Below are positions 4,161-24,331 of a DNA stretch of 64,000 nucleotides, in pieces. The stretch's first letter is position 1, and every line of letters begins with the position of its first letter. Below the pieces are notes generated by a model, which saw only the letters and a program-made list of their open reading frames with translations, did not search any database and had not been told where the DNA came from. Both the position numbers and the translations under genes were made by a program. Origin of the DNA: Cymbomonas tetramitiformis (lineage: Eukaryota; Chlorophyta; Pyramimonadophyceae; Pyramimonadales; Pyramimonadaceae); assembly GCA_001247695.2 (NCBI GenBank), contig LGRX02027676.1:1-64000 (forward strand), in the 5' to 3' direction.

Positions 4161-4165
4161 CAAAC
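4161..4165. repeat. Target-site duplication CAAAC (left) of the gypsy element
   Basis: CAAAC at 4161-4165 is repeated at 19790-19794, directly outside the two LTRs. A 5-bp duplication is the usual product of Ty3/gypsy integration, so both ends of the element are exact. Confidence 0.92.
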
Positions 4166-4590
4166 TGTAGGAGTCTACACTCTTGCTTCTTCTCTTCTTT
4201 ACGGTTTCGGACTTATTCTATCTACACTTATTAAACGACCGCACGAGGTATGATTACGCTTGGTCAACTATAAGACTTCGGTTTCGTAAATCTATATAGT
4301 TATGCTTTTGCTTTCAGTGCATGCTTTCAATACACAATATACAGCAGTTACGGCTCTTTACTTTTATGTTGTACTTTTCAATTCAGTTCTCATCCCCGAA
4401 ACGGGTTACACTTAGAGTTCTTATACATTCAGGAACTCTTTCCATAACTCAACTGTACTGAGTACTCCGTACAACAGGCTAGGCACCTCACATCAACATC
4501 ATTCTGATCGGTCCTACTGTACTCCGTACTGAGTACTCTGCGTTTTATACTTAGCCGTTTTTCTTGCTCTTGTGCTTGCCTCCTAGCACA
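4166..4590 (-). repeat. 3' LTR of the gypsy element
   Basis: 425-bp LTR which, read on the minus strand, starts TGTGCTAGG and ends CCTACA, so it has TG...CA ends. It matches 19364-19789 except for an A/G substitution and one T indel. A TATATAG motif near 4290 on the minus strand is a plausible core promoter element. Confidence 0.95.
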
Positions 4591-4591
4591 A

Positions 4592-4604
4592 CTCCCCCCC
4601 CCTT
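4592..4604 (-). promoter_or_regulatory. Polypurine tract
   Basis: On the minus strand AAGGGGGGGGGAG lies one base from the start of the 3' LTR. This is where plus-strand DNA synthesis is primed in LTR retroelements. Its position confirms the orientation and the LTR edge. Confidence 0.85.
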
Positions 4605-4787
4605 AGGGAAGGTCACGTCCACGCTGACCACGTCGGACCAGTAAAGTTTTTATACAGATCTTCTACTGTTGCTCTTAATGATTATACAGGTCTCAGCCGC
4701 CTGTTGTCTGGGATGACATTACACTTCCCAAGACACACCGCGATAAGGAGATCGACCTCTTAAGCACAAGGGTCGGCCTCTCACCGG

Positions 4788-5589
4788 CTGTGTCTAAGTA
4801 GTCGCGTTTGCGGTGACGATTAGTCGCGCGATTAGTCGCATTTTGGGGTGTTCACGATTAGTCGCGATTAACGTTTAGACCTTAACACTGTGGGAGCATC
4901 TAACCGCTCCCGAGACATACTTAGACACCGCTTATCCTTCCTGTGAGCTTTGTATCCGTAACTTATTCGTATCACCCATATCGATGTGCATATATACCTA
5001 TACGAAGTACATTATATCATTACAGAGGCATTACAGAGTCTATTGCAAAGGCATTGGAGAGTCTATTACAGAGGCAGCAGACGAGATGGAATAATAGTAT
5101 AACACTACCGTTGCTTGCTTTTCAGATGATTAATTGTATCGATATCGTGTAAAATTACGGTAAGCAATTAAGGTCTTATCAAGAGTAAGGAGCTGCACTG
5201 GTCCCGACAGTTTTTGGAGGTTTCAGCAAAGACCCCTCCACACCTGGCGGATCAATCACCCTCAGAAACCACCACAAGAACTTGGTGTCATCAGCGCGGC
5301 CGGGTCGTGTGAGCACAGGTCTGGCCGGGGCTGCTGCTGCCATGATGGTCGGTGAAGTATGAAGTGAGATGTTGAGAACTGACGTGTCCCTGTCGTGTAC
5401 ATCTTTCACTTCGTTCGGTTGTGTTATTCGTGTTATGTGACGCTCCGAACCTCCGATGTCGCGATATATAACTCATCGGTCGCGACTAAATCCTTAACAC
5501 TGTGGAGCCCCAAGCCACGATTAGTCGCGCGATTAGTCGCATTTCGGGTTGTCCGCGATTAGTCGCGACGAGCGACTACTTAGACACAG
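4788..5589. mobile_element. hAT-type MITE in the gypsy 3' UTR
   Basis: 802-bp non-autonomous element with perfect 18-bp terminal inverted repeats (CTGTGTCTAAGTAGTCGC) and an 8-bp target duplication, CTCACCGG, at 4780-4787 and 5590-5597. An 8-bp duplication points to the hAT superfamily. Just inside each end are clustered GATTAGTCGC motifs; a stretch of about 60 bp carrying them is present in the same orientation at both ends. No transposase is encoded. Confidence 0.9.
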
Positions 5590-5792
5590 CTCACCGGTCT
5601 GCCATCTGCACTACCAGGCTCCCCCAAGGCTCAAGGTCTCACATCCATTACCACGCTCAAGGTTTTAAACCTTCGAACACGGTACACTTACAGGGGATGA
5701 CAATAGGTTTGCAAATTACCTGACAGTTTTCGGGATGCCGGCCCGGAGGAAAGGTTTTAAACCTTCACCGCCTCCTCGGAGTGCTTAGAGCT

Positions 5793-6110
5793 TTTACCCA
5801 GATCTCCAACTGCTGCCCGGTCGTGCCAGGTCCGGAGCCAATGCTCTCGTGAAATGGATTATACAGATTTCCACCTGTTGCCTGGTCGCACCGAGGCTAG
5901 AGCCACTGCTCGGTTGGATAGATTATCCAGGTTCTCACCTGCCGCCTGGTCATACCGAGGCTTAGAGCCACTGCTCAAATGGATTATACAGATTTCCACC
6001 TGTTGCCTGGCTGTGCCGAGGCTAGAGCCACTGCTCTCTCGGATGGATTACCCAGGTTCTCACCTGCCGCCTGGTCTCGCCAAGGCTGGAGCCACCGCTC
6101 TTCCCGACGC
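5793..6110. repeat. Tandem repeat of about 64 bp in the gypsy 3' UTR
   Basis: About five degenerate copies of a unit of roughly 64 bp containing GATTATACAGATTTCCACCTG and GAGCCACTGCTC variants, between the pol stop and the MITE. The plus-strand frames through it are artefacts of the repeat. Confidence 0.8.
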
Positions 6111-6122
6111 TCCCCAACGCTC

Positions 6123-9100
6123 TCAATCGCTAAGACCACTCGCGTCAGATTCCCATCCGCCCTCAGGTATGATCGTCACTTCAGCTCGTACTCCCGCTAA
6201 CGCTATCGGTTCCGGCTCAAACTCGGGCGGGTCACTCTCAACAACAGCTGACTGGACTAAAACGCTCATCTCGCTCAGATCCTCCCTGACAAGCAGTTCA
6301 GACAGGAACGCATGCACCTCTTCATGTAGGGTCAGGTTGTGGAAAAGCTGTTTTAACAGTGCCGACGGAATCCCATACAAATTCTCTCGCGCTCCCATGC
6401 CCTCCGCAAACACACCTCCGGCTCTCATCGCGCGCCCTCCTTGCGCTACTTTCTCGTGCCTACCGTGCTGCCGGAAGAACTCGCAAGGCGTGTCGGAATC
6501 GCACACTCGCAAGGGTGTGCGCAACGGAACGTTGGTCCAGATGTGCGTGGGCTTCCTGTACGCGGTCCCGTATTTGCAGTACGTGACGAGGTGCGGAGCT
6601 GGTAGATTGCTCATGCAGCGACGCGTGTGCAAACCGTGGGGCTCTCTTCCCTTCGGGTTCTCAATGAAGTATGCTTCGGGCCTCAAGTACCGGATGATCT
6701 CCAATGTCCTACGAACTCGCCTGTCCGCAGCGCGCAAATCTCGGATGCCTACCGTCTTCGCCTGGCTGTACTCTGTACAAGGTGGGCTAGCCCAGACTAC
6801 GTCGAAGTGTCCTGGTCTGAACTGTCGGTAGTCCCATCGCATGATATCCTCGCAATGTGTGGGGCCCCACTTGGGCTGAATGTCTACGGCAACTACTTCG
6901 CTGTTGGGAAATTGCTTAGTGAACTGCCTCTCGACTGACCCGGTCCCACAAAACAATACGAGAATCTTAGACTGGCCGACTGGCTCCTTCTCAAGTGCTG
7001 CGGCTCCGTTGACTGGCGGCAGGGTGCTCTGAGCAGATACTCTCGCGAAAGTTCCTACTTCCTCATCAAACCTCTCCTCTGGCACCCATGGCATTGCTCC
7101 GTCTACCTTGAGCTCCTCCGATAGCGTGGTCCATACCGCTCCTGCGGACTCGTCGCGCCTCTTACGGACCCTAAGCTTCTCTCGCTCCACTCTCTTAGCC
7201 TCGATCCTCTCAAACTCCAACAACGCCCGGTTGGGAACACCGGGCCTGCCGGCTCCGTCCCACTCCAGATCCTCTCGGGTCTTCCACTCGTTCTCACTGC
7301 GGGGCATTCCTGTCCACTTGACCAGGTACTCCGTCCACCTCCTACCCTGACGCTGGCGCGTGCGCGAACGCTCCACCCTCTCGACGTGGGTTTCCTTGCG
7401 CCCGCTGACGTCCAACGGAGGAGGGGGAATCTCCTTAGCTCTCTCAACAAAGCGGCTGCTCGACTCTACCGGCGAAAGCCGGTCCACGGTAAACACATCG
7501 TGCACTTTCCACTGCTTAGGCGTCTGCAACCTATAGGCCGACGGTGCGCCTCTATCGCTCGCGGGAAGGGCCATCTGCCTGTCGCTGTGAAAGACTTCCA
7601 GCACCCGAAGGGGCCCGAGGCGCTTCTTAAGCAATTTCTTGTGCAACCCGCGGTCGCCCGGCTGGGTGAGGTACGTGGCGTCCACCCAAACCTCATCGCC
7701 TACTGCGTAACTCCTGGACTTGTGACGCGCGTCGTACTGGGCGATCTGCTGCTGCTGAGCTAAGAGCAGCTTCTCCCTAGCGAGCTGCAACTGGCGAACA
7801 AATTGGCGGGCTGTCTCGTGGGCTGTACCCTTTTTTACTGCTGCGCCCCTCCCCCCCTTAGCTCGGCCTCTCCGTGATGCAAGTGCTGCCTCCACGAAGA
7901 AGTCCAGCTGAGAGGCCGGAGCGTGACCATACGTCAGTTCAAAAGGGGTGAAGCCCGTGACGGCGGAACGAGAGTCATTAATGGCGTACTCGACCGGGGT
8001 ACACCACAAATCCCAATCGTGCTGGTTGGCGTCGACATACGCGCGCAACATGCGTTCGACCGTGTGGTTTGTGTGCTCTGCCTGCCCATCACCTTGTGGG
8101 TGGTACGGCGTGGTAGAGGCAACCTGGACTCCCATCAACCGATGTAGCTCGAGATGCATCTCATCCCTGAAGCGGGAGTCCCGATCACGGACGATCTTCA
8201 TGGGAGCGCCGTGCAAACGCCACACTTGGTCGAAATACATGCGCGCGATCTGTGCAGCTGAGCTGTCAGCGTAAAGCATGGGGACTACGTGCACCATCTT
8301 GGACAACTTGTCCGTGAAGGTAGCAAACGCGTCGTACCCTCGCTCTGTGCGGGGCAGCCCAGTGACGAAGTCGATACTAACCACTTGCCACAGTCTTACT
8401 GGGACTTGCAGGGGGTTAAGCTGACCGTCTGGATACCCGTTGCGTGGCCGGGTCTGTTGGCACACGACGCAGGATTTGCACCAGTCGGTGACATCCTTGC
8501 TCATGCGTGGCCACCAAAAACGACGGGATACCCTGTCCAGTGTCTTATCCCTTCCTGTGTGCCCTGCTGCTGGGGACTCGTGTGCTTCGCGCATCACCAG
8601 CTCTCTGAGGGGGGAATCCTGAGCTAGCACTAGCTGATACCGCCCTTCTGCCACTCGCCATATCATGTCGTCTACCATGCGAAATGTGTCTGTCCTCTGA
8701 TGTGGGGCTGCGATCAGTTCTTCCTTCAACGAGCTGAGGTACGGGCTGCGTTCGTATTCCGCTTGCAAGGCGCGGACGAACTCATCAGCCTTCAGTGGTC
8801 CTGACGCTGCCCTGGCCTTTGCTGCAACCCCTGTAGTGACTAAAGGCTCGTCGGGTTCTGCCTCACTGTCCTTTCGCGCAGGCGGCGCTCGGGGCTTTGC
8901 CCTGCTGGCTGCTGGGGCCCACACCAGAAGGACCGGCCAGCGCAGCGGGGGTCGACCTCCATCAGGAGACTCGAAGAGGTGGTTGGGACGACCTTTTTCG
9001 TCCTTTGTGTCAAAGACCTTGACCGGATGAAGCCCATACTTGGGGTGAATCAACCGCCTCCAGGGAGCGTCATAGTCTGGCAGAAGGAACATTGCCGAGG

Positions 9101-12100
9101 TGTTTTCAGGATCGGCGCGCCACTCAGCAAGGAAATGCCGAAGAATTCTTTCTATCAAGTCTGAATCCTTCGTGTAAGGGGGGTTACACCAAACGTGTTT
9201 CCCGCGCCACTTTTCCTTCAAGCAGTCGGTCCAATAGGTGTCAACCTGCCGGTTAACGCCCATGGAGTCGCAACACGCGTCAACGTCAAACATCCCGTAC
9301 TGGGCCGCTATCTCCTCAAAGCGCTCCCTGATCAGCTTCCAGTCCTGGCGATCTACGACCTGGTCGTAGTGGGAGCTACCTTCTGGGGGCTTAACGGGCT
9401 CAGGTACCTTTCCGGCTGCCTTTGGATGATTCTGGGTCTCAGGGTGGGGGAACTCGTCGGTCCCCGGTGCTCCTTCCTCCGGATGACTCTGGACTTCTGC
9501 TGTGGCCTGTTCCCTAGCTCGGTCTGCTCTGGTCATGACTGCTAGCGATTCGGCATCCCTCAAGGACTTCTCGCCTACTGCTAGGGTGGCAGCTGCGTCC
9601 AGCCAAAGGGCCGGCGACTCTACCCACGTGAGCCCATTCAGATGGGTGAGCTCACCAATGACCGGTGCTGGACTGGTGGGAGGGAAGGACTCGTCCTCGG
9701 AATCACTATACTCGAAGGTGGCGCCTAAGACAGATGTGGGATCCTCGTCCTCTTCACATCTCTTGCCTTTCGGCTCAGAGTACTCGGGTCCATCGGTGGT
9801 GCGATCCACTGCCCCGAGGACAGAGGTAGGATCCTCGTCCTCTTCGGACCCCTTGCCTATCGGTGCGGAGTCTCTGGGCCCATCCGTGGCGCGATCCACA
9901 ATCCCTTTTTCCTTTAACACTTCTCTGGCTGACATTTCCTGATAGCCTGGTCGCTGGGACTGCGCATCTGGTACTACTAAACAGCGCCCTGGCACGTGCT
10001 CCATCTGATGGACTCCTACCTCTACCAAGTCCTCGTACCAGCGAGCCTGACGTCGGCTGAGCTCCCTAGCTGGGGCGAAGAGCCACTGAAGGGGTTTATG
10101 GTCTCCCATGAGCTTAAATGATGTAAAAATCAGATAATGTCTCCAGGTGACCGTGGTGCAATGATGGATGGCACAAAGCTCCCGTTCCCCAGCGTGATAG
10201 TTCTGCTCTGCGCTGGAGAACTGCCGGCTTTCAAAGGCCAAGGGCTGCAAGCCTCGTCCCTGATCCTGCATGAGTACACCCCCTAGTGCTACTCCACTGG
10301 CATCTGTCTGTACAAAGAAGGGTCTGGAACCGTCTGCTGCGCCCTTTTGATCGGGTAGGGCCAAGGCTGGGGAGGAGATCAAAGCAGTTTTTAGCTGTTT
10401 AAATGCTGCCTTTTCATTCTCGCCCCAGGTCCAGTCCACGCCGGATTTGGTGAGGCGGGTCAACGGGTACGCGATATCTGCGAAGTTCTGGATGTACCTC
10501 CGGTAGAAGCCACACATGCCCAGGAACTGTCGCACGTGTGTGACAGTTTCTAGGTCTGGCCAATCGCGTACCGACGCAACCTTATCCTGCTGTGGGCGGC
10601 ATCCATCCCGATCCACCACATGCCCTAGGAACCGGACTGATCGTTTGCACAGTTTGACTTTCGACTTTTTAAGGTAGACGGAATTCTTTCGACATGCCTC
10701 CAAGACCTGGCGGAGGTGGTCGAGGTGTACCTCATGGGCGCTCTTACCCGGAACCTCAGCCGAGAAAATCATGATGTCATCTACAAATACTCTGCAAAAG
10801 GGTAGGTGCCCGAGGTACTGTTGCATCATCCTTTGCCAGGTACTTGGGGAGTTTGACAATCCCATAGGCATGACCAACCACTCGTACGCTCCAAAGTGCG
10901 TAGTCATTGCGGTTTTCTCCACGTCCTCTGCTTTCATAGGAACCTGCCAAAATCCCCAAAGGGCATCCATCGTAGAGAAGACGGTAGCCCCTTGTAGGTC
11001 ATCTAAGAGACTCTGGACATCCGGGAGGGGGTACTTATCCTTGACTGTGATCTCATTGATCTGTCTGTAGTCAATGACTAGACGCAACTCCTTGGGATTA
11101 CTCGGCTTGGGGACCATCAGCACGGGGCAGCCCCACGGAGAGGCCGAGGGTCGTATGTACCCTTTGGCTAAGAGCTCATCTAGCTGTTGCCGGAGTTGCC
11201 GCAACTCCTCCTGCGACAACTTGTACCCTCGCCGGTGCAAGGCGTTCCCACTCCAATCTGGCCTGAGCCGGATGCCGGACTTGAATTCCCTTGACTGGAC
11301 TGATTCTGGCAGCTCTGTGCAAATGACATCTGCGAACTCCTTTTCCAGGTCCCTAAGCTGCTGCCAGATTTCCGGCGACACCGTCTCGTCTATCTCGTCC
11401 TCCGGCGGTTCCGGGGAGGCCTGAGCAGTCTGTGGGGCTGGCGGCGGGGTAGTGCCTGGCGGGACGGCCGGTACCGGCGGGTCTGTGGTCTGCGGAGCTG
11501 GCGGCGGGGTAGTGTCTGGCGGCACGACTGGTGCCGAGGCTCGCGACTTCTGACTCTGAGGGCTCGGGACGGTGGGGACTTTTGGTCCCGGCGGCTGCTC
11601 GGTGGAGGGGCCACTTTCAGCACCAGGCTGACCGACTGCTGCGACCTGGTCACGCCAACGCACTCGCTTACGCCGTGCTCGGGGTCGTCGCTCCGCGACC
11701 AGACCCCGGCCCTGCCGGAGCGCCGCGGCTGCCTGAGCGTGCCAGGTGGGTGGCTTCCCGGCCGCGTGATCCTCTATCGCCTGTCTACGCACCGCTGGCG
11801 GAAGCAACGCAAATGCTCCGTTCGCCTCCTGTTTGCTAGCGAAAACGCTGAGAGGGTCAGGATGATCCCCGGCCTCGTCGACCGTACTCGCAAATCCCTG
11901 TGGCCTAATATCCTCGACCACCGCCCCTACTCTCTGCAAATGACACGCTCCTTCCACGTCACTATAGCCGGACTCGGAGCTGTCCGAGACCAACCCTCCC
12001 GGCCCCTCAGACTCCTCTGCTCCGTCCGGCACCGTTGCGCTGGGACGCACGCTGACTTCACTATCCTCGGACCCGGAGGAGGGTTCTGACGCTAGGCCTG

Positions 12101-14222
12101 CTACAACATCGTTGGGGGAATCTTCGTCGGAGTCTCCCCCCCAGGGGAGAAGTCCTGTCGCGATTGACCGGCCCCTGGCCGAGAGAGTAGTCTCCAAAAA
12201 AGAGGGTTTGGCCGAAGATTGGCCGAAAGAATTTTGACCCTTAAGTATGCAAAAAGATGTCAAAACAAGAAAAAACAAATGTTTTCTCGAAAACTGGCCG
12301 AAAGACCTCCGGATAGGACTTCTGCCCTGCTCCCCCCCCTTGTTGCAGGCCAACGCGCCAAAAGTCCCATCGGGGCCGAGGTAGACGACGAAAGCTTGCT
12401 CCTCTCTGTTTCGGAGGGTCCGCAGGTCCCGGCGAGCTCGACGTTGGCTCAAAAGGACTCCCTGTACCAGTGCTATTGCCGTGTCCTTGGACCGACTGGG
12501 GTCCGGGGACCCCGGCGAACAGCCGGTGATGACGACCTCTTCCCTGCCTTTGGTGAACCGGACCGAACCCCAGTTCTTATAATCCAGTGTAACCGGGGAA
12601 AGGTTCGCCAGCCAAGGACCTCCCAGGATGACATCCACCTTGAGGTCGAGGGGCATTACCCGAAGCTCAACCTGCTGGCCGTAAGACCCCTTCGACGTCT
12701 CAGCAAGGAGCTTGGGCCTGATGCAGGAATTAGCATCATATGTGGTGCCGTCAGCCACTCGAACCCGCATGGCTTGCTCGTGGCGCACCGGCTTGACGCC
12801 GGAGAGCTTCTGCAGTGTACTCTTTGCGATAATATTGGTGGATGCTCCCGAATCCACCAACACCTTGACTCTGACGCCCGCAATCCAGGCCCAAAACAGC
12901 AACAACGTCGGTGTGCGACTGTGCCTGTCGAAACTCCTCGGGCGCGCTCCCATCGAGGACACCGCTGCCAGGGACTCACACCAGCTCGGACTGATATCGC
13001 CGTCCTGCATTATGCAGTCCAGGCGGGTGACTGACGTTTCTGCGTCGGAGTCACAGTCCGGGAGGCAGTAAGTACATGCGTCCGCTAGCAGGCCGATGGC
13101 GACTGCTTTCTGGACTGCACTGCGCTCCGGGAAGTCTGGGGGGGACACCGCGACTTGGACTGACGCTGCAGCCAGTTTAGCCGCTATGTGCTTTCTGACT
13201 TGCTCGTCCCGGTGCATCAGCTCATTGTCTTGCTGAAGTTCCCTATTCTCCCTTTCCAACTCCTCCTTTACGAAGGCGTGGAAGTCCGCATGGCGTTCTG
13301 TTGAGGTAGAAGCCGGGTCCCTACCCTCCAACTCGTACCTGCGCTGCAATCGAGAGGTTCGAAGCGCCTTGTCTTCAGGAGTCAGCCATGGTCTGCGTTT
13401 CGGGCCCAAAGCCTGGCGAGCCCTGCTTCGGGTCAACCACGGCCGACTGGGCTTTGAAGTTCTCTCTGGTGGTGAGAGTTCTTCTCCCTCGGCAGGCTTG
13501 GGCTTGGCAACGCGAACGAACCGTCCGAACTCCTGATCCAAGATGGCTTTGCGTCGGCGATTGAACTCGCGCACCCTGACGAGCCGCTTCAAGCGCTTAT
13601 CTAACTCTTCTCGATTCAACTGGGGCTTACTAGTCGTGGGTCCAAGCTTCTGGCTCATCCGCCTTTGACCTGCCCTCCAAAGCGCAAGGGACTTGACCGG
13701 TCGGACCTCTGACTCTTCCAGCTTTAGATACCTTTCTAGCGCCCTGATGGCGGAACGCAGGCGAGCACTTGGCTGCTGGGCCTGAAAGGCTTTCCTAACT
13801 CTGGGGGGTAAACGCTGAGCCCTGAACTTCCAGTGCCCGCGAACTCTCGCAACATCCGACCCCTGGTTCTCCAGGTGCTGTTGGTAGACTGCCCGTGGCT
13901 CAACTGTGTGGCTCGACCGGTTTTTATCCCGGGTGTCCGCACCGGTGATCCAACAGAGCAGCTCCCACGGCTCCTCGGGACGCGGAACTGAGGCGGTTGC
14001 TGGGGTTCTGGCGGACTTCCAGAAGTTCGCCTGCTCTCTTTGGACGCGTTGCTCGACCTGTTCCCGCTCAGGAGGCTCTGGGCTTCCCGTGCGGGTGGCG
14101 GCTAGCATGTCCAACCCTTCCTGCTCATACTTCTCGACTCGACTCTGGCTCTTGAGGTGGCGCCTGGCGCTGCCACTAAGGTGTCTCCCACACCTTCTCC
14201 ACCTATCACGCAGCACCTGCAT
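6123..14222 (-). CDS. pol: Gypsy Pol polyprotein: protease, RT, RNase H, Dam-like MTase, integrase, chromodomain, C5-cytosine MTase
   Basis: A 2699-residue polyprotein from an ATG at 14222. Approximate domain positions are: protease near 455 (LVDSGAS); a Pro-rich linker; RT near 1030-1200, with DALWGFWQVP and the catalytic FVDD near 1145; RNase H from about 1300 (QTDASG, ERELCAI); an acidic linker with an internal repeat; a Dam-like N6-adenine methyltransferase near 1620-1790 (FDVDACC, WCNPPY near 1676); integrase from about 1880 with an HHCC finger and a D-D-E core; a chromodomain near 2300 (YLVKWTGMPRSENEW); and a C5-cytosine methyltransferase near 2425-2590 with LFCGTGSVE, SPPCTEYSQ (catalytic Cys) and YFIENP. 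RT and RNase H copy the element, integrase inserts it, and the chromodomain probably reads histone marks. That the two methyltransferases modify element or target DNA is inferred. All catalytic residues I checked are present. Confidence 0.95.
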   Translation of the reverse strand: MQVLRDRWRRCGRHLSGSARRHLKSQSRVEKYEQEGLDMLAATRTGSPEPPEREQVEQRVQREQANFWKSARTPATASVPRPEEPWELLCWITGADTRDKNRSSHTVEPRAVYQQHLENQGSDVARVRGHWKFRAQRLPPRVRKAFQAQQPSARLRSAIRALERYLKLEESEVRPVKSLALWRAGQRRMSQKLGPTTSKPQLNREELDKRLKRLVRVREFNRRRKAILDQEFGRFVRVAKPKPAEGEELSPPERTSKPSRPWLTRSRARQALGPKRRPWLTPEDKALRTSRLQRRYELEGRDPASTSTERHADFHAFVKEELERENRELQQDNELMHRDEQVRKHIAAKLAAASVQVAVSPPDFPERSAVQKAVAIGLLADACTYCLPDCDSDAETSVTRLDCIMQDGDISPSWCESLAAVSSMGARPRSFDRHSRTPTLLLFWAWIAGVRVKVLVDSGASTNIIAKSTLQKLSGVKPVRHEQAMRVRVADGTTYDANSCIRPKLLAETSKGSYGQQVELRVMPLDLKVDVILGGPWLANLSPVTLDYKNWGSVRFTKGREEVVITGCSPGSPDPSRSKDTAIALVQGVLLSQRRARRDLRTLRNREEQAFVVYLGPDGTFGALACNKGGEQGRSPIRRSFGQFSRKHLFFLVLTSFCILKGQNSFGQSSAKPSFLETTLSARGRSIATGLLPWGGDSDEDSPNDVVAGLASEPSSGSEDSEVSVRPSATVPDGAEESEGPGGLVSDSSESGYSDVEGACHLQRVGAVVEDIRPQGFASTVDEAGDHPDPLSVFASKQEANGAFALLPPAVRRQAIEDHAAGKPPTWHAQAAAALRQGRGLVAERRPRARRKRVRWRDQVAAVGQPGAESGPSTEQPPGPKVPTVPSPQSQKSRASAPVVPPDTTPPPAPQTTDPPVPAVPPGTTPPPAPQTAQASPEPPEDEIDETVSPEIWQQLRDLEKEFADVICTELPESVQSREFKSGIRLRPDWSGNALHRRGYKLSQEELRQLRQQLDELLAKGYIRPSASPWGCPVLMVPKPSNPKELRLVIDYRQINEITVKDKYPLPDVQSLLDDLQGATVFSTMDALWGFWQVPMKAEDVEKTAMTTHFGAYEWLVMPMGLSNSPSTWQRMMQQYLGHLPFCRVFVDDIMIFSAEVPGKSAHEVHLDHLRQVLEACRKNSVYLKKSKVKLCKRSVRFLGHVVDRDGCRPQQDKVASVRDWPDLETVTHVRQFLGMCGFYRRYIQNFADIAYPLTRLTKSGVDWTWGENEKAAFKQLKTALISSPALALPDQKGAADGSRPFFVQTDASGVALGGVLMQDQGRGLQPLAFESRQFSSAEQNYHAGERELCAIHHCTTVTWRHYLIFTSFKLMGDHKPLQWLFAPARELSRRQARWYEDLVEVGVHQMEHVPGRCLVVPDAQSQRPGYQEMSAREVLKEKGIVDRATDGPRDSAPIGKGSEEDEDPTSVLGAVDRTTDGPEYSEPKGKRCEEDEDPTSVLGATFEYSDSEDESFPPTSPAPVIGELTHLNGLTWVESPALWLDAAATLAVGEKSLRDAESLAVMTRADRAREQATAEVQSHPEEGAPGTDEFPHPETQNHPKAAGKVPEPVKPPEGSSHYDQVVDRQDWKLIRERFEEIAAQYGMFDVDACCDSMGVNRQVDTYWTDCLKEKWRGKHVWCNPPYTKDSDLIERILRHFLAEWRADPENTSAMFLLPDYDAPWRRLIHPKYGLHPVKVFDTKDEKGRPNHLFESPDGGRPPLRWPVLLVWAPAASRAKPRAPPARKDSEAEPDEPLVTTGVAAKARAASGPLKADEFVRALQAEYERSPYLSSLKEELIAAPHQRTDTFRMVDDMIWRVAEGRYQLVLAQDSPLRELVMREAHESPAAGHTGRDKTLDRVSRRFWWPRMSKDVTDWCKSCVVCQQTRPRNGYPDGQLNPLQVPVRLWQVVSIDFVTGLPRTERGYDAFATFTDKLSKMVHVVPMLYADSSAAQIARMYFDQVWRLHGAPMKIVRDRDSRFRDEMHLELHRLMGVQVASTTPYHPQGDGQAEHTNHTVERMLRAYVDANQHDWDLWCTPVEYAINDSRSAVTGFTPFELTYGHAPASQLDFFVEAALASRRGRAKGGRGAAVKKGTAHETARQFVRQLQLAREKLLLAQQQQIAQYDARHKSRSYAVGDEVWVDATYLTQPGDRGLHKKLLKKRLGPLRVLEVFHSDRQMALPASDRGAPSAYRLQTPKQWKVHDVFTVDRLSPVESSSRFVERAKEIPPPPLDVSGRKETHVERVERSRTRQRQGRRWTEYLVKWTGMPRSENEWKTREDLEWDGAGRPGVPNRALLEFERIEAKRVEREKLRVRKRRDESAGAVWTTLSEELKVDGAMPWVPEERFDEEVGTFARVSAQSTLPPVNGAAALEKEPVGQSKILVLFCGTGSVERQFTKQFPNSEVVAVDIQPKWGPTHCEDIMRWDYRQFRPGHFDVVWASPPCTEYSQAKTVGIRDLRAADRRVRRTLEIIRYLRPEAYFIENPKGREPHGLHTRRCMSNLPAPHLVTYCKYGTAYRKPTHIWTNVPLRTPLRVCDSDTPCEFFRQHGRHEKVAQGGRAMRAGGVFAEGMGARENLYGIPSALLKQLFHNLTLHEEVHAFLSELLVREDLSEMSVLVQSAVVESDPPEFEPEPIALAGVRAEVTIIPEGGWESDASGLSD

Positions 14223-14261
14223 CGCTGTGGACGCCGGCGCGGGGCCCTTTTGTCCCCCTGA

Positions 14262-14298
14262 CCCCGCAGTGACGGGGCCCGCGCCCTTTACTGCGGGG
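14262..14298 (-). promoter_or_regulatory. Stem-loop across the gag stop codon
   Basis: CCCCGCAGT (14262-14270) and ACTGCGGGG (14290-14298) are perfect 9-bp arms; the gag stop TAA (14288-14290) sits at the arm edge. Pol starts at 14222 in a different frame after a 65-bp gap. The hairpin may influence how ribosomes reach pol; the sequence alone does not show this. Confidence 0.5.
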
Positions 14299-17200
14299 AG
14301 GACGCCCCGGGCTGGGGAGCGTCCTCCTGGACAAAATCCAATCCGATGGCAGCCAAAGCTTCATCCGCCGACTCGTCCCCTATCAACGCCAGGGTGTCCT
14401 CCAGGAGGCACTTGGCCCACTCCTTCGGGCGCTGCTTCGCCTGCGGACAGTCGCGGGCATAATGGTCCATGCTCTTGCACAGACGGCAGCCCTCGTACTC
14501 TGGGGAGCCGAGTCGTTGCCCTGTGGGTGTCGGAGTGCCAGCGGATGTCGCCATGGCTAGCAGCTCCTCCGTGACATCTACGTGGGCCAGCAGCTGGACC
14601 GAGCGGCTCGTCTTATCCTGGCTCTGCCGCAACTCCCGCTCAGCCTCTATGGCCCAGGTCAGGAGTTCGTGGCGGCCTTTACTGGCCGTCCGGCTCAGGG
14701 TCAGGACCGAAGAGCTTTTCCTCTCGGCTATAAGGAAGACCTTCCTCCTTATCTCCGGTATCAATCCCGTAAGGAATATCTCCAGCAGCTCCTCTTCCGG
14801 CACCGGAGAGGTGAGCTCGTGGGCAGCCAGCATGCTCACGATGTCGTGAGCAAGGTGCACCCCGTCCCAGAACTCGCGGACCGTGCGAGTCTGTCTGTCC
14901 TGACTTTGGCGCACGCGACGCAGGAACGGACCGATCGACGCCATTTCCCCCTTGTCGGGCATCACCAGCTGCGCCAAGGGGACCACTATGACGTCCAGGG
15001 TGAGGTTCTTACCTTCCCGAGCCTCCGTCAACACCGAAGAAAGCTCGCGGTACTCGGAGCTGAGTGCGCCGAAGCAGTGTCTGGCCACTTCTGACAGCAG
15101 GGAGTGGTCCGACAACACCTTCTCCTCACCCCCGCTCTCCAGACGCGCCATCTCCATGGCGTAGCGCACCGGCTCCAGTTCCCGAACCTCCCTGACCTGC
15201 CGAACAAATCGGAGGAGCCGACCAAAGACGTGGGACGACCCCTCCACCTCTGTGTGGTATTTGTCCACTGCCTTCTCCATGGCTCTGAGGGCCTCCTTGA
15301 GAGCGTGCTGCTCGTCCTTACGACTGTAATGGCTTCGGGGCTCCCTGTAACGAGAGGAAGACGAGAAGGTGAACTGGCTGTCGCCATCCCCGTCCTCGCC
15401 ATCGCCGCCAGGGTCCTCGCCCGGACTCCCCGGGCCTCCCGGCCCTCCAGGGTCACCGCTCCCCGAGCCTCCAGGACCACCATGACTGCTGGCACCGGGC
15501 ATCTCCGAAAGCTCGTTTGGCTCCGAGTGCTCCAGTTGAGGGACCATCCCCCCCCCGTCTTCCGGTGTGTCTACCGCCGTAGCAAGCGGAGGCGGTGTCA
15601 CAGCCGGAAAGTGGTCGAAAGCACCGGGCCACACGTCCGCGGCGCAAAACCCACACACCGGCAGGTACACCTTTTTCAGGAACGCTACCACACTTTTCTT
15701 AGCGCTTGCCTGACACGCCCACATACGCACCGGGCTTTCCTCGTGCCCGCACCCACAGCGAGCGCAGCTCTCTGCGACGGACGCCAAGGCCGTCGTGAGA
15801 CTGTGAATCACCTGGGCCCCGAGGACCCTGTCCTCGTCCGAGACTCTTGCCTTCAGGCATTGCCTGATCTGACTGGCAGGGTGCAAGCACCCGGCGACCT
15901 GACCAAGGGAGCGATGCCTACGAGCGTCGTCGTAAAACAGGCGCTGGGCTTCGATCCCCGGGTTGGCATACCCGACCACGTGTTTCCGGAGGGCGTCGCA
16001 GACTTGTATAGGAAGGGAAACAAAGTCCCATGAGTGCGGCGGAAGCGATGTCACGCCCGCGCGTGACTCCTCCGGAGGGCTTTGAACGCCCCGGTTCTCG
16101 ACGTCACAGGTGACGACGGAAGTCGGCTCTACCAGCTCATGTCCCTCTCGGGAGATGGGCGTCTCCTGAACCGGACTCGACGCTGCCGCTGAGGGCCCTC
16201 GAGCGTCTGACTCCACGGGCCCTGGGGGCGAAGCCTGAACCAGGGCGAGCCTTTGGACTTGTGACTCTATGACCGCCTGCAGCCTCTCCTCTAGCTGGGC
16301 CTCAGCTGCTGCTCGCCGCTCATCAGCAGCTACCTGCTGAGCGACGCTCTCGTCGACAGCCAACTGCCTGGCAGTCTCCCGGGCCTCTGCGGCCAGCCGG
16401 TCTGCAGCCCAGCGCTCTTCGACAGCGCGTTGCTCGGAGGCCCTGCGTTCCTCGGCAGCGCGCTGATCGGAGATCCTGCGCTCCTCGGCAGCTCTTTGAC
16501 TCTCTTGGAGTTGCCGAGACAGCTGTTCCAGGCGAGCCTCGGCAGCCGCCTCCCGAGCTTGCGACTCCTTCTGCCAGGCTTCCTTCAGCTCTTGCAGGTC
16601 CTGACTGTTCCTGCTCGAGGTGGACTCCGGGGACGACGACGTGTTCCCTGAGGAAGTCGGACCGGGGTGCGGGGCCGATGGTGCTCGACTGGGCTTCCGG
16701 GTGCGAGGCACCGGGCGACTGGGGCCGCTCGGCTTAGGCGCCTGAGTCCTGGGCCTCGGACGTTCCGCGGGATGCTCTTCCTCCGATGAGGACGAGAGGG
16801 GAGCAAACCGGTTCGACCAGTTCCCACCGGGGGCTGCGGAACTCGGAGGTGCTGTACCTGACTTCCTAAGACCCCTGTGTGACTTCCGGGTGCGGCCGCT
16901 CATTCTGACGGCCGCGACGACCGCTCTCCTTACCTCCTGGAGGTCCACTCCTCGGCGTACTAGCTCCCCTGGTCTGCTGGCGTTGATGGCAAAGACAGAG
17001 AATCTACACCTCCCGAGGGAGTTGTGAGGGTCCTCGCGCTTTTGCTGCATCAACCCCCTGGACTCGGAGACTGACTGCTGGTGGATCTCCAGGCGATAAG
17101 CGCCGTCCTCGGAGAGCCCATAGTCCTTGAGCTGGAACCACATTAGCCCTGACAGCGGGTGGTCTTTCCCCAGGCGCTTTAGGCCTCGACGGATGTCTTG

Positions 17201-18559
17201 CCACATAGACTCCTGGTCGGAATCCGAGCAAGAGCTGACACCGGATGAGGTTCCCGCCTTTCTTACTGGACGGCGGGCACTCGTTCCCTGGGACGAGTCC
17301 GAGCTGACTGGGGTCGTCCTGGGGAGCCGGCGCCACTCGCGGAGACACCTCCTGCCCATCTGGGTCATCCGGTGTCTCCGGGCTCCAACCCACCAGGTGC
17401 TCCTCTCCTTGGCGAGCATCGTCTGCTGGTGCCATGCCATGAAGACAGCTCCAGCTTGACGTCTGCCTCTGCGCCACAGACCCTGTGTCTGGACGACATG
17501 CTGGCGCCATGCCGCGAAAGCGGACTCGACTCGGCGCCGACTGCCTCTGTCAAACAGGCCCTGAAGTTGGGCGACCTGCTGGGTGACGTCATTCCACGCT
17601 TGGAATGCCAGGCGCTGGAGCTCGCGCTGATGCGCTGACTGGTCCGTTCTGGCCTTCCATGCGACCCACGCAAGCCGCGCGGTTGCGCGCTGACGAGATG
17701 GCAGGGAGACTCTCGCACGTCGTTGCGCTGAATTCAGCGCCCAGGTGCTCCATTGACGGAGGGCCAATGCGAGCATGGATTGACGTCGCTCTCCTCGCCA
17801 AGCCGGATTGGGCCGGATGCGAGACTCGCGCCCCCGTGATTGGACGACGTCCAGCCGCTCTGGGCGCCGGACATCATCAGACTCCCCTTCTGCAGGGGGG
17901 CTCCAGTCACTGGCTCGGTAAATCTCAAAGCGCCCTGGGGCGCTGATGAGATTTCCTTGCTCGCTCCCCACGAGGGGAGAGAGGGAGGACGCTGCCGGTC
18001 CCGACGTCGGTTCCTGACGGACGACCCTACTGCTCGCACTCCTGCTGGACGCAGGGAGTGGGGAGAAGGGAGCTGCCGAGGGGTTCAACCCCTTAGCAGA
18101 GCGGTCCGAGTCCGACCCGGAGCTGGCGCCTGCCGCCGGTGGTGCCGGAGCTTCGGGCGACGCACGCTTCCGGCGCGCCGGCTGCCGTAGCGCCGAGCTC
18201 AATGCGAGCTCGGATACTGGCTCAGCCCCACTGACTCTCGCTGGTGAAGGGGTTTTCGGTGGCGAGGCCCTGGGGGGCCCACCAGACAACCCTGGAGGGG
18301 CTCTCAGGGGCGTGCGCGCCGGTGTAACCTCGAGGGCTTCACCGCCGTATTGGCGTGCAAGCGCACGCCGCACTCCCTCCCCCCTCTCACGGGAGCGCCA
18401 ATCCCGGCTGTCTGACCCGCCAGCCGCGCCCCAGAACTCCCCAGAGCCTGGGCCGACCGACAGGCCCGCAGCGCGAGACCCCGACCGACCGGACCCCACG
18501 GCTGAGCCGGGGGCGGCGCCGGCCCGACCCCCCCACGACGGCCCGACCGACCGAGGCAT
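14288..18559 (-). CDS. gag: Gypsy Gag with coiled coil and CCHC zinc knuckle
   Basis: 1423 residues from an ATG at 18559, far longer than the few hundred usual for gypsy Gag. The first 650 residues are Ser/Arg/Pro-rich and probably disordered. A long charged coiled coil rich in AAEERR repeats lies near 660-770, a collagen-like Gly/Pro stretch near 1030-1060, a helical capsid-like domain near 1080-1330, and the zinc knuckle CRLCKSMDHYARDC (C-x2-C-x4-H-x4-C) near 1370. It should form the particle that packages the RNA; the knuckle binds nucleic acid. Pol follows 65 bp downstream in another frame. The N-terminal extension is unrecognised. Confidence 0.88.
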   Translation of the reverse strand: MPRSVGPSWGGRAGAAPGSAVGSGRSGSRAAGLSVGPGSGEFWGAAGGSDSRDWRSRERGEGVRRALARQYGGEALEVTPARTPLRAPPGLSGGPPRASPPKTPSPARVSGAEPVSELALSSALRQPARRKRASPEAPAPPAAGASSGSDSDRSAKGLNPSAAPFSPLPASSRSASSRVVRQEPTSGPAASSLSPLVGSEQGNLISAPGRFEIYRASDWSPPAEGESDDVRRPERLDVVQSRGRESRIRPNPAWRGERRQSMLALALRQWSTWALNSAQRRARVSLPSRQRATARLAWVAWKARTDQSAHQRELQRLAFQAWNDVTQQVAQLQGLFDRGSRRRVESAFAAWRQHVVQTQGLWRRGRRQAGAVFMAWHQQTMLAKERSTWWVGARRHRMTQMGRRCLREWRRLPRTTPVSSDSSQGTSARRPVRKAGTSSGVSSCSDSDQESMWQDIRRGLKRLGKDHPLSGLMWFQLKDYGLSEDGAYRLEIHQQSVSESRGLMQQKREDPHNSLGRCRFSVFAINASRPGELVRRGVDLQEVRRAVVAAVRMSGRTRKSHRGLRKSGTAPPSSAAPGGNWSNRFAPLSSSSEEEHPAERPRPRTQAPKPSGPSRPVPRTRKPSRAPSAPHPGPTSSGNTSSSPESTSSRNSQDLQELKEAWQKESQAREAAAEARLEQLSRQLQESQRAAEERRISDQRAAEERRASEQRAVEERWAADRLAAEARETARQLAVDESVAQQVAADERRAAAEAQLEERLQAVIESQVQRLALVQASPPGPVESDARGPSAAASSPVQETPISREGHELVEPTSVVTCDVENRGVQSPPEESRAGVTSLPPHSWDFVSLPIQVCDALRKHVVGYANPGIEAQRLFYDDARRHRSLGQVAGCLHPASQIRQCLKARVSDEDRVLGAQVIHSLTTALASVAESCARCGCGHEESPVRMWACQASAKKSVVAFLKKVYLPVCGFCAADVWPGAFDHFPAVTPPPLATAVDTPEDGGGMVPQLEHSEPNELSEMPGASSHGGPGGSGSGDPGGPGGPGSPGEDPGGDGEDGDGDSQFTFSSSSRYREPRSHYSRKDEQHALKEALRAMEKAVDKYHTEVEGSSHVFGRLLRFVRQVREVRELEPVRYAMEMARLESGGEEKVLSDHSLLSEVARHCFGALSSEYRELSSVLTEAREGKNLTLDVIVVPLAQLVMPDKGEMASIGPFLRRVRQSQDRQTRTVREFWDGVHLAHDIVSMLAAHELTSPVPEEELLEIFLTGLIPEIRRKVFLIAERKSSSVLTLSRTASKGRHELLTWAIEAERELRQSQDKTSRSVQLLAHVDVTEELLAMATSAGTPTPTGQRLGSPEYEGCRLCKSMDHYARDCPQAKQRPKEWAKCLLEDTLALIGDESADEALAAIGLDFVQEDAPQPGASSPQ

Positions 18560-19363
18560 TCCTCTTCATCCGAGTACATTGGCATTGTATGCGTGCTATG
18601 CGTGAGATCTAATTAGCTAAAGCCGAAAGTGCCACACGACACACGTGGCGACTAGCACCCGCCGATCCAGAAATTCACCACTTGCGCCCGAGCACAAGCA
18701 GCTACACCGGCCGAGGCGCGGAGATTTCCGGAAAAGAGGATTCTAGAAAACTAAAGTCCCATGGGGAACATCACACGTTGCACGCTCGTGAATTAACCAA
18801 TCGAAAAACGGTTGGCGTGGCAACTAGTACCCGCTTCCAGGAATTCGCTACTTGCGCGCGAGCACAAGTAGACACACCGGCCGAAGCGCGGAGATTCCCG
18901 AATAGGGGGGACTAGGGGGCCAAATTAAAGGTAGGCGAAATCCCGAACCAGCTCCGAATTTCAGCAAAAGCCACGCAAAATTCAAAAATTTGCGCAGCGC
19001 TTCCGCCGCGAAGGGTCGGATTTGCCGAAAAACTGAGACGATTCCGATTTCCCGATACCTGCGAGTCCAAAACACGGCTATGCGTGCTATGCGTGCTATG
19101 CGTGCTATGCGTGCTAGGACCAAGGCAACGCGCGCACCTCAAAAGATTGTCGTCGGGCTAGATTCCTCCACACCGACGCGGCTCCAAGCGACCTGGAACC
19201 CTCAAACCCACACACCACCGCGCAACAAGAACGAAAGCACAGGCATTCTCGATTTCGTAGTGTCGCACTTCGCTAGCTAGTCGCGCAAGGCGGGGCGGGT
19301 ATGATCAGAATTCGCGCTAAAAAGACAGGGAAGCAACGTGAAAACACGAACTAATTACCATTT
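18560..19363 (-). other. Gypsy 5' leader with internal duplications
   Basis: About 800 bp between the 5' LTR and gag with no supported ORF. An imperfect direct duplication of about 90 bp lies at roughly 18645-18733 and 18816-18904. A 10-bp repeat (GCGTGCTATG) runs four times at 19080-19118. Next to the LTR the minus strand reads TGGTAATTAG three bases in (19360-19351); this is the only primer-binding-site candidate I see, and it matches the plant-type initiator tRNA site only in its first five bases. Confidence 0.6.
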
Positions 19364-19789
19364 TGTAGGAGTCTACACTCTTGCTTCTTCTCTTCTTTAC
19401 GGTTTCGGACTTATTCTATCTACACTTATTAAACGACCGCACGAGGTATGATTACGCTTGGTCAACTATAAGACTTCGGTTTCGTAAATCTATATAGTTA
19501 TGCTTTTGCTTTCAGTGCATGCTTTCAATACACAATATACAGCAGTTACGGCTCTTTACTTTTATGTTGTACTTTTCAGTTCAGTTCTCATCCCCGAAAC
19601 GGGTTACACTTAGAGTTCTTATACATTCAGGAACTCTTTCCATAACTCAACTGTACTGAGTACTCCGTACAACAGGCTAGGCACCTCACATCAACATCAT
19701 TCTGATCGGTCCTACTGTACTCCGTACTGAGTACTCTTGCGTTTTATACTTAGCCGTTTTTCTTGCTCTTGTGCTTGCCTCCTAGCACA
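19364..19789 (-). repeat. 5' LTR of the gypsy element
   Basis: 426 bp, a near-identical partner of 4166-4590. It should carry the element promoter on the minus strand. The CAAAC duplication follows at 19790-19794. Confidence 0.95.
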
Positions 19790-19825
19790 CAAACTCGAGC
19801 CAACAGAAATTAATAATCAAATTAC

Positions 19826-20965
19826 TCATACAAATACCCGCACGAATGATTGTGCCGCATTCAGCTCCATGTATTCTTTCGTCGAGACTTTCTCTATCTG
19901 CCTTGAGGATGACATTCCCAAGACTTGCCACACTTTCATATAATGTCTAGCAATCCTCTCTGTTTTCCAATACGCCTGTCCCATAACCTGCTGCAGGTCG
20001 GCTCCTTCAAGGAAAAGTTCAATTGCTCCCGCTGTCCGAATGCTGAAGAATGTTTCCCCATTGAACAGCCCCGCTTTTTGCAACCAGCATTTGAGGTCTG
20101 AATTCATCTGCTTCCTGGAAATTGGACTATTTTCCACTTTGCCAGACCTGACTGGTCTGAACAAGAATCCTTGTGCAAGGTTCAAACCCAAAATTTTCAT
20201 CACTTGGAGGTAGTCCTCCAACGCTGAGATGGGGCATTTAGATTTATCAGGGAGTCTTTTGATTCCGAAAACGTGTTCATCGCCCGAACGGAGTGCCTTC
20301 CCCCACTGGTAGTTGAAGAGAAAACCGGAGTTATCGGGAAATCTTATGATCCCTTCCACCCTTGTGGCGCCCAGCTCCGCCGGTCTCTTCAGAGCGTATA
20401 AGTCCATCAGGATCATTGCCTTACATCTAAGAGTGATGAACAAAAGTATCCAATCTTGTGTCGAGGCAAAACCAGCTGCCTCTGCGTTCATGTGAATCAC
20501 TAGCTTGTCGATCGTACAACTGAAAAGTGGTGTTGCCTGATTTGGGGTGATTCTTGCTTGCAACTGTTCGTTCCTGGTCATCGTTTCATAGACCTTAACC
20601 ACTCTACCTGTGCACGGGTTGTCCGACCCACCCCTTCCGAAATCCTGGAAGGCACTAGAGAGTCTGCCGATAAGGGAATTCACCGAACTTGCGGCTTGCC
20701 TGACTGGGCAACTACATCCTCCCAGTTGAGGGCACGTGGCCGAATGTACGTTAGTCTTACCGAACTGTTCCAAGTAAATAAGATACCATAAGATGTGTTG
20801 TGCTGTACACGAATCCAATGATTCTGGTGGGGTCATGCAAGCCAGGAATTCCCCGAGGGTCCGCAAATTTCGGAGTTTGGCCGATTGGTACACATCCCTG
20901 GCCCTTGCTTCCTGAAGCTCCTTCGTTCTTAGATGTATGGCGGCCCAGTCAGGGGCTTTTCTCAA
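19826..20965 (-). CDS. Tyrosine recombinase of the YR retroelement
   Basis: About 380 residues of a phage-integrase-type recombinase, which inserts the circular DNA of DIRS-like elements by cutting and rejoining with a tyrosine. The first catalytic Arg is in LKRPAEL; the C-terminal block has SIRTAG (the Arg present, the usual HxxR His replaced by Ser), then YWKTERIARHYMK with the presumed nucleophilic Tyr. The Ser at the HxxR position is worth noting. The start is uncertain: 20965 is a TTG and the frame is open upstream to a good splice acceptor (GGTTAACAG, about 20987), so this may be an exon spliced to the RT part or a separate ORF. The gypsy element lies directly downstream. Confidence 0.85.
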   Translation of the reverse strand: MRKAPDWAAIHLRTKELQEARARDVYQSAKLRNLRTLGEFLACMTPPESLDSCTAQHILWYLIYLEQFGKTNVHSATCPQLGGCSCPVRQAASSVNSLIGRLSSAFQDFGRGGSDNPCTGRVVKVYETMTRNEQLQARITPNQATPLFSCTIDKLVIHMNAEAAGFASTQDWILLFITLRCKAMILMDLYALKRPAELGATRVEGIIRFPDNSGFLFNYQWGKALRSGDEHVFGIKRLPDKSKCPISALEDYLQVMKILGLNLAQGFLFRPVRSGKVENSPISRKQMNSDLKCWLQKAGLFNGETFFSIRTAGAIELFLEGADLQQVMGQAYWKTERIARHYMKVWQVLGMSSSRQIEKVSTKEYMELNAAQSFVRVFV

Positions 20966-21117
20966 CAGGCTCTTGCCACCACCCTGTTAACCTCAAAATT
21001 TTCCCCTTCCCCGAAAGTTACAGGCGTTCAACAATTTATTTTCCAAGGTAAACGGATTACTATGGGAGGCTATTAATATATCACATGAATTTTGTGTTTT
21101 TGGAATACGAAGTGTTT

Positions 21118-24100: not shown

Positions 24101-24331
24101 TGCAATCACGGCCCCCACGAATTCTGCATAATTATTCGTCTTGGATCCAAGGCGCCCGTAGTCCCGGGTCCACTGTTGACCTTGTTCTGAGCAGAGTGCC
24201 ACCCCGAACGAGGCTTGCCTCAAATCCGGCGACGCGTTAAAGCGGCATGCACCATCGAAGAAAAGCAATCCCTTCCGTGGGGCTGAGTTTGGCTCGTGTC
24301 CCTGTTCGAGACAACAACCACACCAGAGCAC
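21118..24331 (-). pseudogene. RNase H-RT-MTase polyprotein of the YR retroelement, split by a MITE
   Basis: The upstream part (24331-23284) begins with an RNase HI domain: FFDGACR, YAEFVGAV, VGDSELVV and a final HNKLADSLA. It ends at RT motif 1 (KINDARFLN). The downstream part (22720-21118) continues RT with MDQANGFFHV (motif A Asp) and LYYIDDNAGG (catalytic YIDD), then a degenerate second RNase H-like stretch, then the DIRS-type methyltransferase-like tail with DCFA and CYANPPF. The two parts are separated by the insertion 22725-23279, flanked by TTAA; if that segment and one TTAA are ignored, the frame continues with no stop. The insertion is the only disabling change I see. The N-terminal start is not clear; the frame opens after a TAG near 24385 and may be a spliced exon. 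Confidence 0.85.
22725..23279. mobile_element. piggyBac-type MITE
   Basis: 555-bp non-coding element with 14-bp terminal inverted repeats (CCCCTCTTCCGGTA) flanked on both sides by TTAA (22721-22724 and 23280-23283). TTAA duplication and ends beginning with CCC are diagnostic of the piggyBac superfamily. It interrupts the RT of the YR element between motif 1 and motif A. It contains no transposase. Confidence 0.9.

Follow-up and report, generated by a model that had tools for sequence, protein, structure and literature searches.

Two predicted methyltransferase domains, Dam-type and C5-type, in the Pol polyprotein of a multicopy Ty3/gypsy retrotransposon of Cymbomonas tetramitiformis

A Ty3/gypsy retrotransposon of Cymbomonas tetramitiformis was found to carry two distinct methyltransferase (MTase) type domains, a predicted Dam-type N6-adenine MTase and a predicted C5-cytosine MTase, in a single open Pol polyprotein (ORF2, 2699 aa, no internal stop), as had been proposed in a sequence-only reading of the same DNA. 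Retroelements with a single MTase are already known, and what appears to be new, judged by open-licence papers, is the occurrence of both MTase types in one gypsy pol. The retention of two unrelated enzyme types for two bases in one polyprotein, and in divergent families of the element, argues that the modification of DNA (or RNA) is useful to the element. The many copies in one alga, some of them with full-length open frames, make the question of why the domains are retained a tractable one.

The window, i.e., the whole stretch of 64,000 nucleotides that was analysed (contig LGRX02027676.1, positions 1 to 64,000, assembly GCA_001247695.2), contains the element at positions 4166-19789 on the minus strand. 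Its features, in the 5' to 3' direction of the element, are the following:

19790..19794, minus strand: target-site duplication GTTTG, 5' side
19364..19789, minus strand: 5' LTR, 426 bp, termini TGTGCTAGG...CTCCTACA (TG...CA type)
14288..18559, minus strand: ORF1, gag-like, 1423 aa, separate from and upstream of ORF2
6123..14222, minus strand: ORF2 (pol), 2699 aa, zero internal stops
12570..12875, minus strand: aspartic protease, aa 450-551 of ORF2
12143..12331, minus strand: private in-frame insert of 189 nt between protease and reverse transcriptase, found in 0/10 other copies examined there
10476..11225, minus strand: reverse transcriptase (RT), aa 1000-1249, Pfam E 3.4e-30
9963..10427, minus strand: RNase H (RH), aa 1266-1420, matched by two Pfam RNase H models
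8919..9389, minus strand: predicted Dam-type N6-adenine MTase domain, aa 1612-1768, NPPY present
7896..8780, minus strand: integrase (IN), H2C2 and core, aa 1815-2109, Integrase_H2C2 E 1.7e-23, rve under the Pfam cutoff
7254..7427, minus strand: chromodomain, aa 2266-2323, PF00385 E 1.8e-7, passing the cutoff
6303..6989, minus strand: predicted C5-cytosine MTase domain, aa 2412-2640, LFCGTGS, SPPC and ENP present
4591..4604, minus strand: polypurine tract AAGGGGGGGGGAGT, read by eye, abutting the 3' LTR, with T as final base
4166..4590, minus strand: 3' LTR, 425 bp
4161..4165, minus strand: target-site duplication GTTTG, 3' side

The two LTRs, previously described as nearly identical, agree in 424 of 426 aligned columns and differ by one substitution and one 1-base gap. 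ORF1 contains a CCHC zinc knuckle at aa 1357-1373 (Pfam E 0.0011, slightly under the cutoff). The frame of ORF2 is open from position 14360, which makes it run, in the -1 frame, over roughly the last 70 nt of ORF1; a canonical slippery heptamer was not seen in this overlap when it was checked by eye. The Pfam scan gave the ORF2 domain order protease-RT-RNase H-Dam-integrase-chromodomain-C5 and thereby confirmed the placement of Dam between RNase H and integrase and of C5 after the chromodomain. The order of protease, RT, RNase H and integrase is of the Ty3/gypsy type, the top PDB match is the Ty3 gag-pol (E 3.1e-107), and the chromodomain lies 3' of the integrase as in chromoviruses. ORF2 has Integrase H2C2 and rve and not the tyrosine recombinase of DIRS elements. 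The window copy is a recent insertion of a multicopy chromodomain Ty3/gypsy element. It had also been called intact, which holds for the open frame; because of the private 189-nt insert, absent from 10/10 copies, the copy is open and not typical of its family.

The identity of the two MTase domains was assessed using Pfam and PHROG profiles, PDB sequences and AlphaFold2 models, and the assignments made earlier from motifs alone agreed with the results. When the whole ORF2 was searched, PF05869 (Dam) matched aa 1624-1692 with 34.3 bits (E 2.3e-8, cutoff 28.1) and PF00145 (C5) matched aa 2451-2525 with 19.7 bits (E 6.4e-4), i.e., under the cutoff of 22, which the C5 domain exceeded when it was searched in isolation (24.7 bits). 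Among 12 aligned domains of each type, PF00145 matched 11/12 C5 domains and PF05869 matched 12/12 Dam domains (E up to 0.01). The PHROG phage MTase profiles matched both domains (phrog_757 and C5, E 1.1e-15; phrog_111 and Dam, E 8.8e-12), and weak relatives of C5 and Dam were present in 11 and 191, respectively, of 50,697 phage genome records. By family membership the domains are thus two unrelated, phage-type, putative SAM-dependent MTase domains. Their active-site motifs appear intact (NPPY in Dam; LFCGTGS, SPPC and ENP in C5), as had been noted from the letters. The AlphaFold2 models were confident for Dam (mean pLDDT 89.5, pTM 0.85) and for C5 (mean pLDDT 84.2, pTM 0.82). In the C5 model SPPC comes after the strand at residues 69-72 and ENP closes the strand at 111-117, the places at which C5 enzymes have their motifs IV and VI.

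The C5 domain is short (about 228 aa), and no target-recognition domain was recognisable in it. Its PF00145 match spans only positions 41-113 of the 324 profile positions; motifs I, IV (PPC) and VI (EN) are present in the window domain, in which two conserved stretches, YCxYGxxYxK and IPxxL, may be the counterparts of motifs VIII and X. When a profile of the 12 aligned C5 domains was searched against PDB sequences, the sole significant match was DNMT2 (motifs I-VI, E 1.7e-8), followed among C5 enzymes by a tRNA enzyme (E 0.013), a 5-cytosine DNA MTase (0.063) and DNMT1 (0.18 or worse). DNMT3 was not listed in this search up to E 1, and the name Dnmt3 did not occur among the best 120 of 1892 C5 relatives, most of these 120 being nameless; on these comparisons we saw no sign that the C5 domain would be of the Dnmt3 type. 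The corresponding Dam profile had zero matches among PDB sequences up to E 1.

The genome of C. tetramitiformis, a marine prasinophyte green alga (Chlorophyta, Pyramimonadophyceae), was searched for further copies (851.7 Mb, 25,745 contigs). With a 501-bp probe from the chromodomain region all 40 places that were scored, out of 1395 candidates, had 99-100% identity. For the C5 domain, with polyprotein P0003 as reference and families pooled, 150 of 7965 candidates were scored; an internal stop was present in 2/150, and 19/150 were enclosed by open frames of 2753-2759 aa. Twenty copies drawn from the 40 scored places (the window being one of the 40) were compared using local blocks of at least 85% identity and at least 150 nt, and blocks of at least 97% identity for the CpG and N/S tests described below. 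A domain was counted as present in a copy when at least 100 codons of Dam or at least 190 codons of C5 were covered. Both domains were present in 15/20 copies, C5 without Dam in three (L229, L235, L236) and Dam without C5 in one (L234); L242 was the sole copy with neither, and six of the 20 had at least one in-frame stop within the aligned blocks. The two outcomes that the earlier reading had named as refuting it, searches that fail to place the segments among methyltransferases and copies elsewhere that lack the domains, did not occur: profiles assigned both segments to MTase families, and other copies carry both. Annotated proteins also correspond to genomic copies: P0003 (CYMTET_43851) is 100% identical to the genome over 215 aa of C5 and to stretch L245 over 1043 aa, P0027 (CYMTET_32924) is 100% identical to genomic stretch L246 over 635 aa, and the C5 of the window is 96-99% identical to CYMTET_12107, CYMTET_53226 and CYMTET_32376. 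A dinoflagellate host, considered because of the published precedent, was rejected on the exact matches to C. tetramitiformis.

For the comparison of related polyproteins 44 sequences were retrieved in total, 23 with the C5 probe and 27 with the Dam probe, and together with the window these formed a set of 45 (P0001-P0045), in which domains were called with home-made HMMs. C. tetramitiformis names stood on 18/27 of the Dam-probe matches. Dam and C5 occurred together in 31/45 polyproteins (window included), Dam only in nine and C5 only in five. The order RH-Dam-IN-C5 was shared by 30 of the 31, the exception being P0011 with its C5 at the N-terminus, and an additional element with this order was found in L186, a contig labelled Verrucomicrobiaceae (bacterial MAG bin). 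A local artefact or chimera was rejected in view of the copies on many contigs and the presence of both domains in 31/45 polyproteins. The "Dam only" P0027 was considered as a truncated gene model and this was rejected; it is instead a copy with an interrupted frame, in which DNA coding for C5 follows shortly downstream in a different frame (L246), so the "Dam only" label does not always imply the loss of C5. The motif NPP[YF] was present in 34/38 Dam rows and lost in P0012, P0041, P0042 and P0044, two of which are polyproteins that retain C5; among the C5 rows PPC was present in 27/27 and ENP in 26/27. Relatives of C5 were also seen in EukProt, in Prorocentrum minimum entries and in one Tetraselmis-coded entry, where contamination is possible.

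When the window element was compared with three divergent ones from the same genome, synonymous sites proved saturated (pS 0.72-0.86 across four domains, 0.80-0.86 where Dam and C5 are concerned), and pN was 0.07-0.14 in Dam, 0.21-0.22 in C5 and 0.05-0.08 in the integrase. Since the protein was kept between families while synonymous sites were saturated, both domains are under purifying selection. In P0002-P0004 the linkers were 51-65% identical, Dam 85-92% and C5 69-72%, and in P0005, P0007, P0031 and P0014 the linkers were 21-41% and C5 50-56% identical; between close families C5 was conserved only moderately better than the linkers, and Dam was conserved more than C5. Distinct changes among the 20 young copies gave N/S ratios of 0.27 for Dam and 0.42 for C5 (P 0.003 each; P 0.012 for Dam and 0.023 for C5 with transitions weighted threefold). 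The ratios for two linkers, 0.46 and 0.53, lie just above that of C5, and the within-family selection signal for C5 is therefore weak.

The descent of the domains was analysed using the 23 polyproteins in which the domains are complete. The Dam and the C5 distances both correlated strongly with those of the core of RT, RH and IN (Mantel r 0.923 for Dam and 0.853 for C5; reached by 0/2000 permutations each), and the core, Dam and C5 trees shared the clades P0001-4, P0005-6, P0007-8, P0031 with P0035, and P0012 with P0014-19. Conflicting branches were those of P0005/6 in the Dam tree and of P0010/P0011, which are joined in the C5 tree, weakly joined in the core tree and separate in the Dam tree. 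As distances track the core and the main clades are common, both domains have for the most part descended together with the core. A tree of 102 C5 sequences places the elements that have Dam and C5 among compact stand-alone proteins, 45 in number and 38-49% identical to the window C5. A single clade for the C5 of the Dam+C5 elements was not rejected (AU p 0.39), which is no proof of a single origin. One capture for all retroelement C5 domains was considered and rejected, the grouping of the C5 of P0020 (with P0080) and the Dam+C5 clade having an AU p of 0.020, and at least the gypsy lineage of P0020 therefore probably acquired such a C5 separately. A compact phage-type C5 has been taken into eukaryotic gypsy elements, with the P0020 lineage as a probable second uptake. 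Phage C5 proteins, about 28-34% identical to the window C5, belong to a family widespread in phages; when viral contigs were scanned three times, each time with one stand-alone C5 protein, 1, 0 and 0 relatives were found.

Several known systems resemble the element in part. KnitGypsy-Dnmt3 of Klebsormidium nitens has a cytosine MTase within the gypsy Pol ORF, and as in the present element its key residues are conserved and it is under purifying selection (PMC5890265); its domain is a Dnmt3, whereas the C5 of the window has its nearest relatives among compact C5 proteins of phage type, and the passages of that paper on KnitGypsy-Dnmt3 mention no adenine-type domain. The same source describes SymbioLINE-Dnmt and SymbioDIRS-Dnmt3 of Symbiodinium, which are likewise retrotransposons encoding cytosine MTases but of the LINE and DIRS and not the LTR/gypsy type, with no Dam partner in the passages concerned. 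DIRS elements do contain a Dam-like adenine methylase domain (PMC5890265; PMC3537659), but they have a tyrosine recombinase in place of a DDE integrase, and no C5 is mentioned for them in the passages concerned. The stand-alone C5 proteins (P0106, P0110, P0111; 202-221 aa) have the same motifs and, like the retroelement C5, start at motif I; they and the phage C5 proteins (phrog_757) differ in being free-standing and not part of Pol. In the 2015 genome of C. tetramitiformis over-represented scaffolds with homology to chromodomain, RNase H and cytosine DNA methyltransferase had been tied to retrotransposons, the pertinent section mentioning neither element structure nor an adenine enzyme (PMC5741210). 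A Sola transposon of Ectocarpus encodes a protein that combines ParB-like and DNA methyltransferase domains (PMC12477816), and retrotransposon DNA methylases, including cytosine MTases and the DIRS Dam, are treated in PMC6338049. Of the open-licence PMC papers listed, in several cases the best 15-25 of a longer list, none was found to report both MTase types, adenine and cytosine, in one gypsy polyprotein, and passages of PMC8775202, PMC12695648, PMC12344493 and PMC9998398 were silent on the combination.

For the function of the pair we prefer, at about an even chance of being right, the following reading. The Dam and C5 pair of this multicopy gypsy element would have been acquired once ancestrally, both domains would be made as part of Pol, and they would travel with the reverse transcription and integration complex, C5 beside the integrase-chromodomain. 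Since in the Pol translation Dam adjoins RNase H and integrase and C5 adjoins integrase and chromodomain, both could act on cDNA or target. The predicted MTases would methylate the new cDNA of the element, perhaps also the target DNA, and incoming methylated copies would be better protected from, or tolerated by, the host; the methylation of cDNA has been discussed as protecting DNMT-encoding elements by de Mendoza et al. (PMC5890265). Our first choice is that methylation hides newly made DNA copies from recognition by the host, with RNA modification and a non-catalytic Dam as the main rivals. As the pair was kept together during diversification the element may tag DNA itself and not via the host. 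A more far-reaching version, which we hold only tentatively, is that of a high-copy lineage with an autonomous two-letter kit of 6mA and 5mC for cDNA or insertion sites, the pair being older than the families and the two marks jointly affecting host recognition.

That Dam could serve in structure or DNA binding without being catalytic, leaving C5 as the only enzyme, is unlikely but deserves weight: in the four polyproteins that lose NPP[YF] the remaining domain still matches, and the adenine methylase of the ALOG/DIRS1 class has been described as catalytically inactive (PMC3537659). The retention of NPP[YF] in the other 34 of 38 rows, including P0011 at only 35% identity to the window's Dam, and the stronger conservation of Dam than of C5 between close families both count against this reading. 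We consider it rather less probable that one or both enzymes modify RNA, such as the tRNA primer or the genomic RNA of the element, and hereby control reverse transcription or RNA sensing. The sole significant PDB match of the C5 profile, DNMT2, is a tRNA C38 methyltransferase; this match is, however, confined to motifs I-VI, which are common to C5 enzymes, and the phage relatives carry a DNA methylase annotation. An m6A RNA demethylase domain has been reported in an orchid Ty3/gypsy element (PMC9289625), which would fit an RNA substrate. Improbable in our view is a cargo function in which the enzymes aid host or element against DNA viruses or competitors, a hypothesis published for retrotransposon-encoded DNA methylases (PMC6338049) and in keeping with the numerous endogenous viral elements of the host assembly (PMC10675990), although selection on a multicopy element cannot separate a benefit to the element from one to the host. 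The similarity of the within-family C5 and linker ratios would be expected of neutral passengers carried unselected, yet such passengers, or an assembly chimera, are very hard to reconcile with the low pN seen between families whose pS is saturated, with copies on many contigs, and with the order shared by 30 polyproteins and L186, and this explanation is given hardly any weight.

Footprints of methylation were searched for in the base composition and among the copies. Changes from C/G to T/A were found at 39/1174 CpG sites and at 108/3566 other C/G sites of the copies, i.e., without an excess at CpG, so that nothing here points to heavy CpG methylation in the element family; transient cDNA methylation, 6mA and non-CpG contexts would escape such footprint tests. 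The CpG observed/expected ratio was 0.85 in ORF2 compared with 0.80 in window positions 20001-64000. Counts of four motifs (GATC, GCGC, CG, CCGG) were compared with those in codon-preserving shuffles of ORF2. GATC was not enriched in ORF2 (28 vs 29.5 in the shuffles), and neither was GCGC. CG was below the shuffles in ORF2 (587 vs 646.6, sd 9.9) and in ORF1 (392 vs 423.6), and CCGG was somewhat high in ORF2 (64 vs 53.3), with 13/500 shuffles equally high, uncorrected.

A Ty3/gypsy polyprotein with both a Dam-type N6-adenine methyltransferase domain (PF05869) and a compact C5-cytosine methyltransferase domain (PF00145) was found to be encoded on contig L186 (NHEN01000032.1), whose label assigns it to Verrucomicrobiaceae bacterium TMED86. 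Because of this polyprotein the contig is probably of eukaryotic origin and probably mis-binned. The compact C5 domain was also identified in other gypsy-like polyproteins (P0020, P0021, P0022, and P0023), in which neither Dam nor a chromodomain was detected. The phylogenetic tree of the C5 sequences supports a separate event by which P0020 would have taken up the compact C5.

Further features of the window were as follows:

4790-5587: nested element, ~800 bp, 15-bp inverted ends
5852-6100: tandem 125-bp repeat, units 87% alike
12143-12331: private in-frame insert, 189-nt
19826-24331, minus strand: DIRS-type element, with ORFs for a tyrosine recombinase (bearing an ALOG domain), RT and RNase H
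29827-30933, plus strand: MULE transposase-like ORF, just below the Pfam cutoff
42406-45495, plus strand: LINE-like ORF with endonuclease and RT
53012-54184, minus strand: ORF with weak KR match

The nested element, whose inverted ends are perfect (GTGTCTAAGTAGTCG / CGACTACTTAGACAC), is hosted by the 3' untranslated region of the gypsy. The tandem repeat directly follows the stop codon of ORF2 (pol of the gypsy) and is overlapped by a weaker match in 5799-6101. The gypsy is adjoined by the DIRS-type element, and the ALOG domain on the tyrosine recombinase of the latter was assigned to PF04852 (E 1.4e-26); a 2012 paper reported that this domain was not found in chlorophyte algae (PMC3537659). 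Among the copies compared at the site, the insert in ORF2 is carried by the window copy alone; it leaves the reading frame open.
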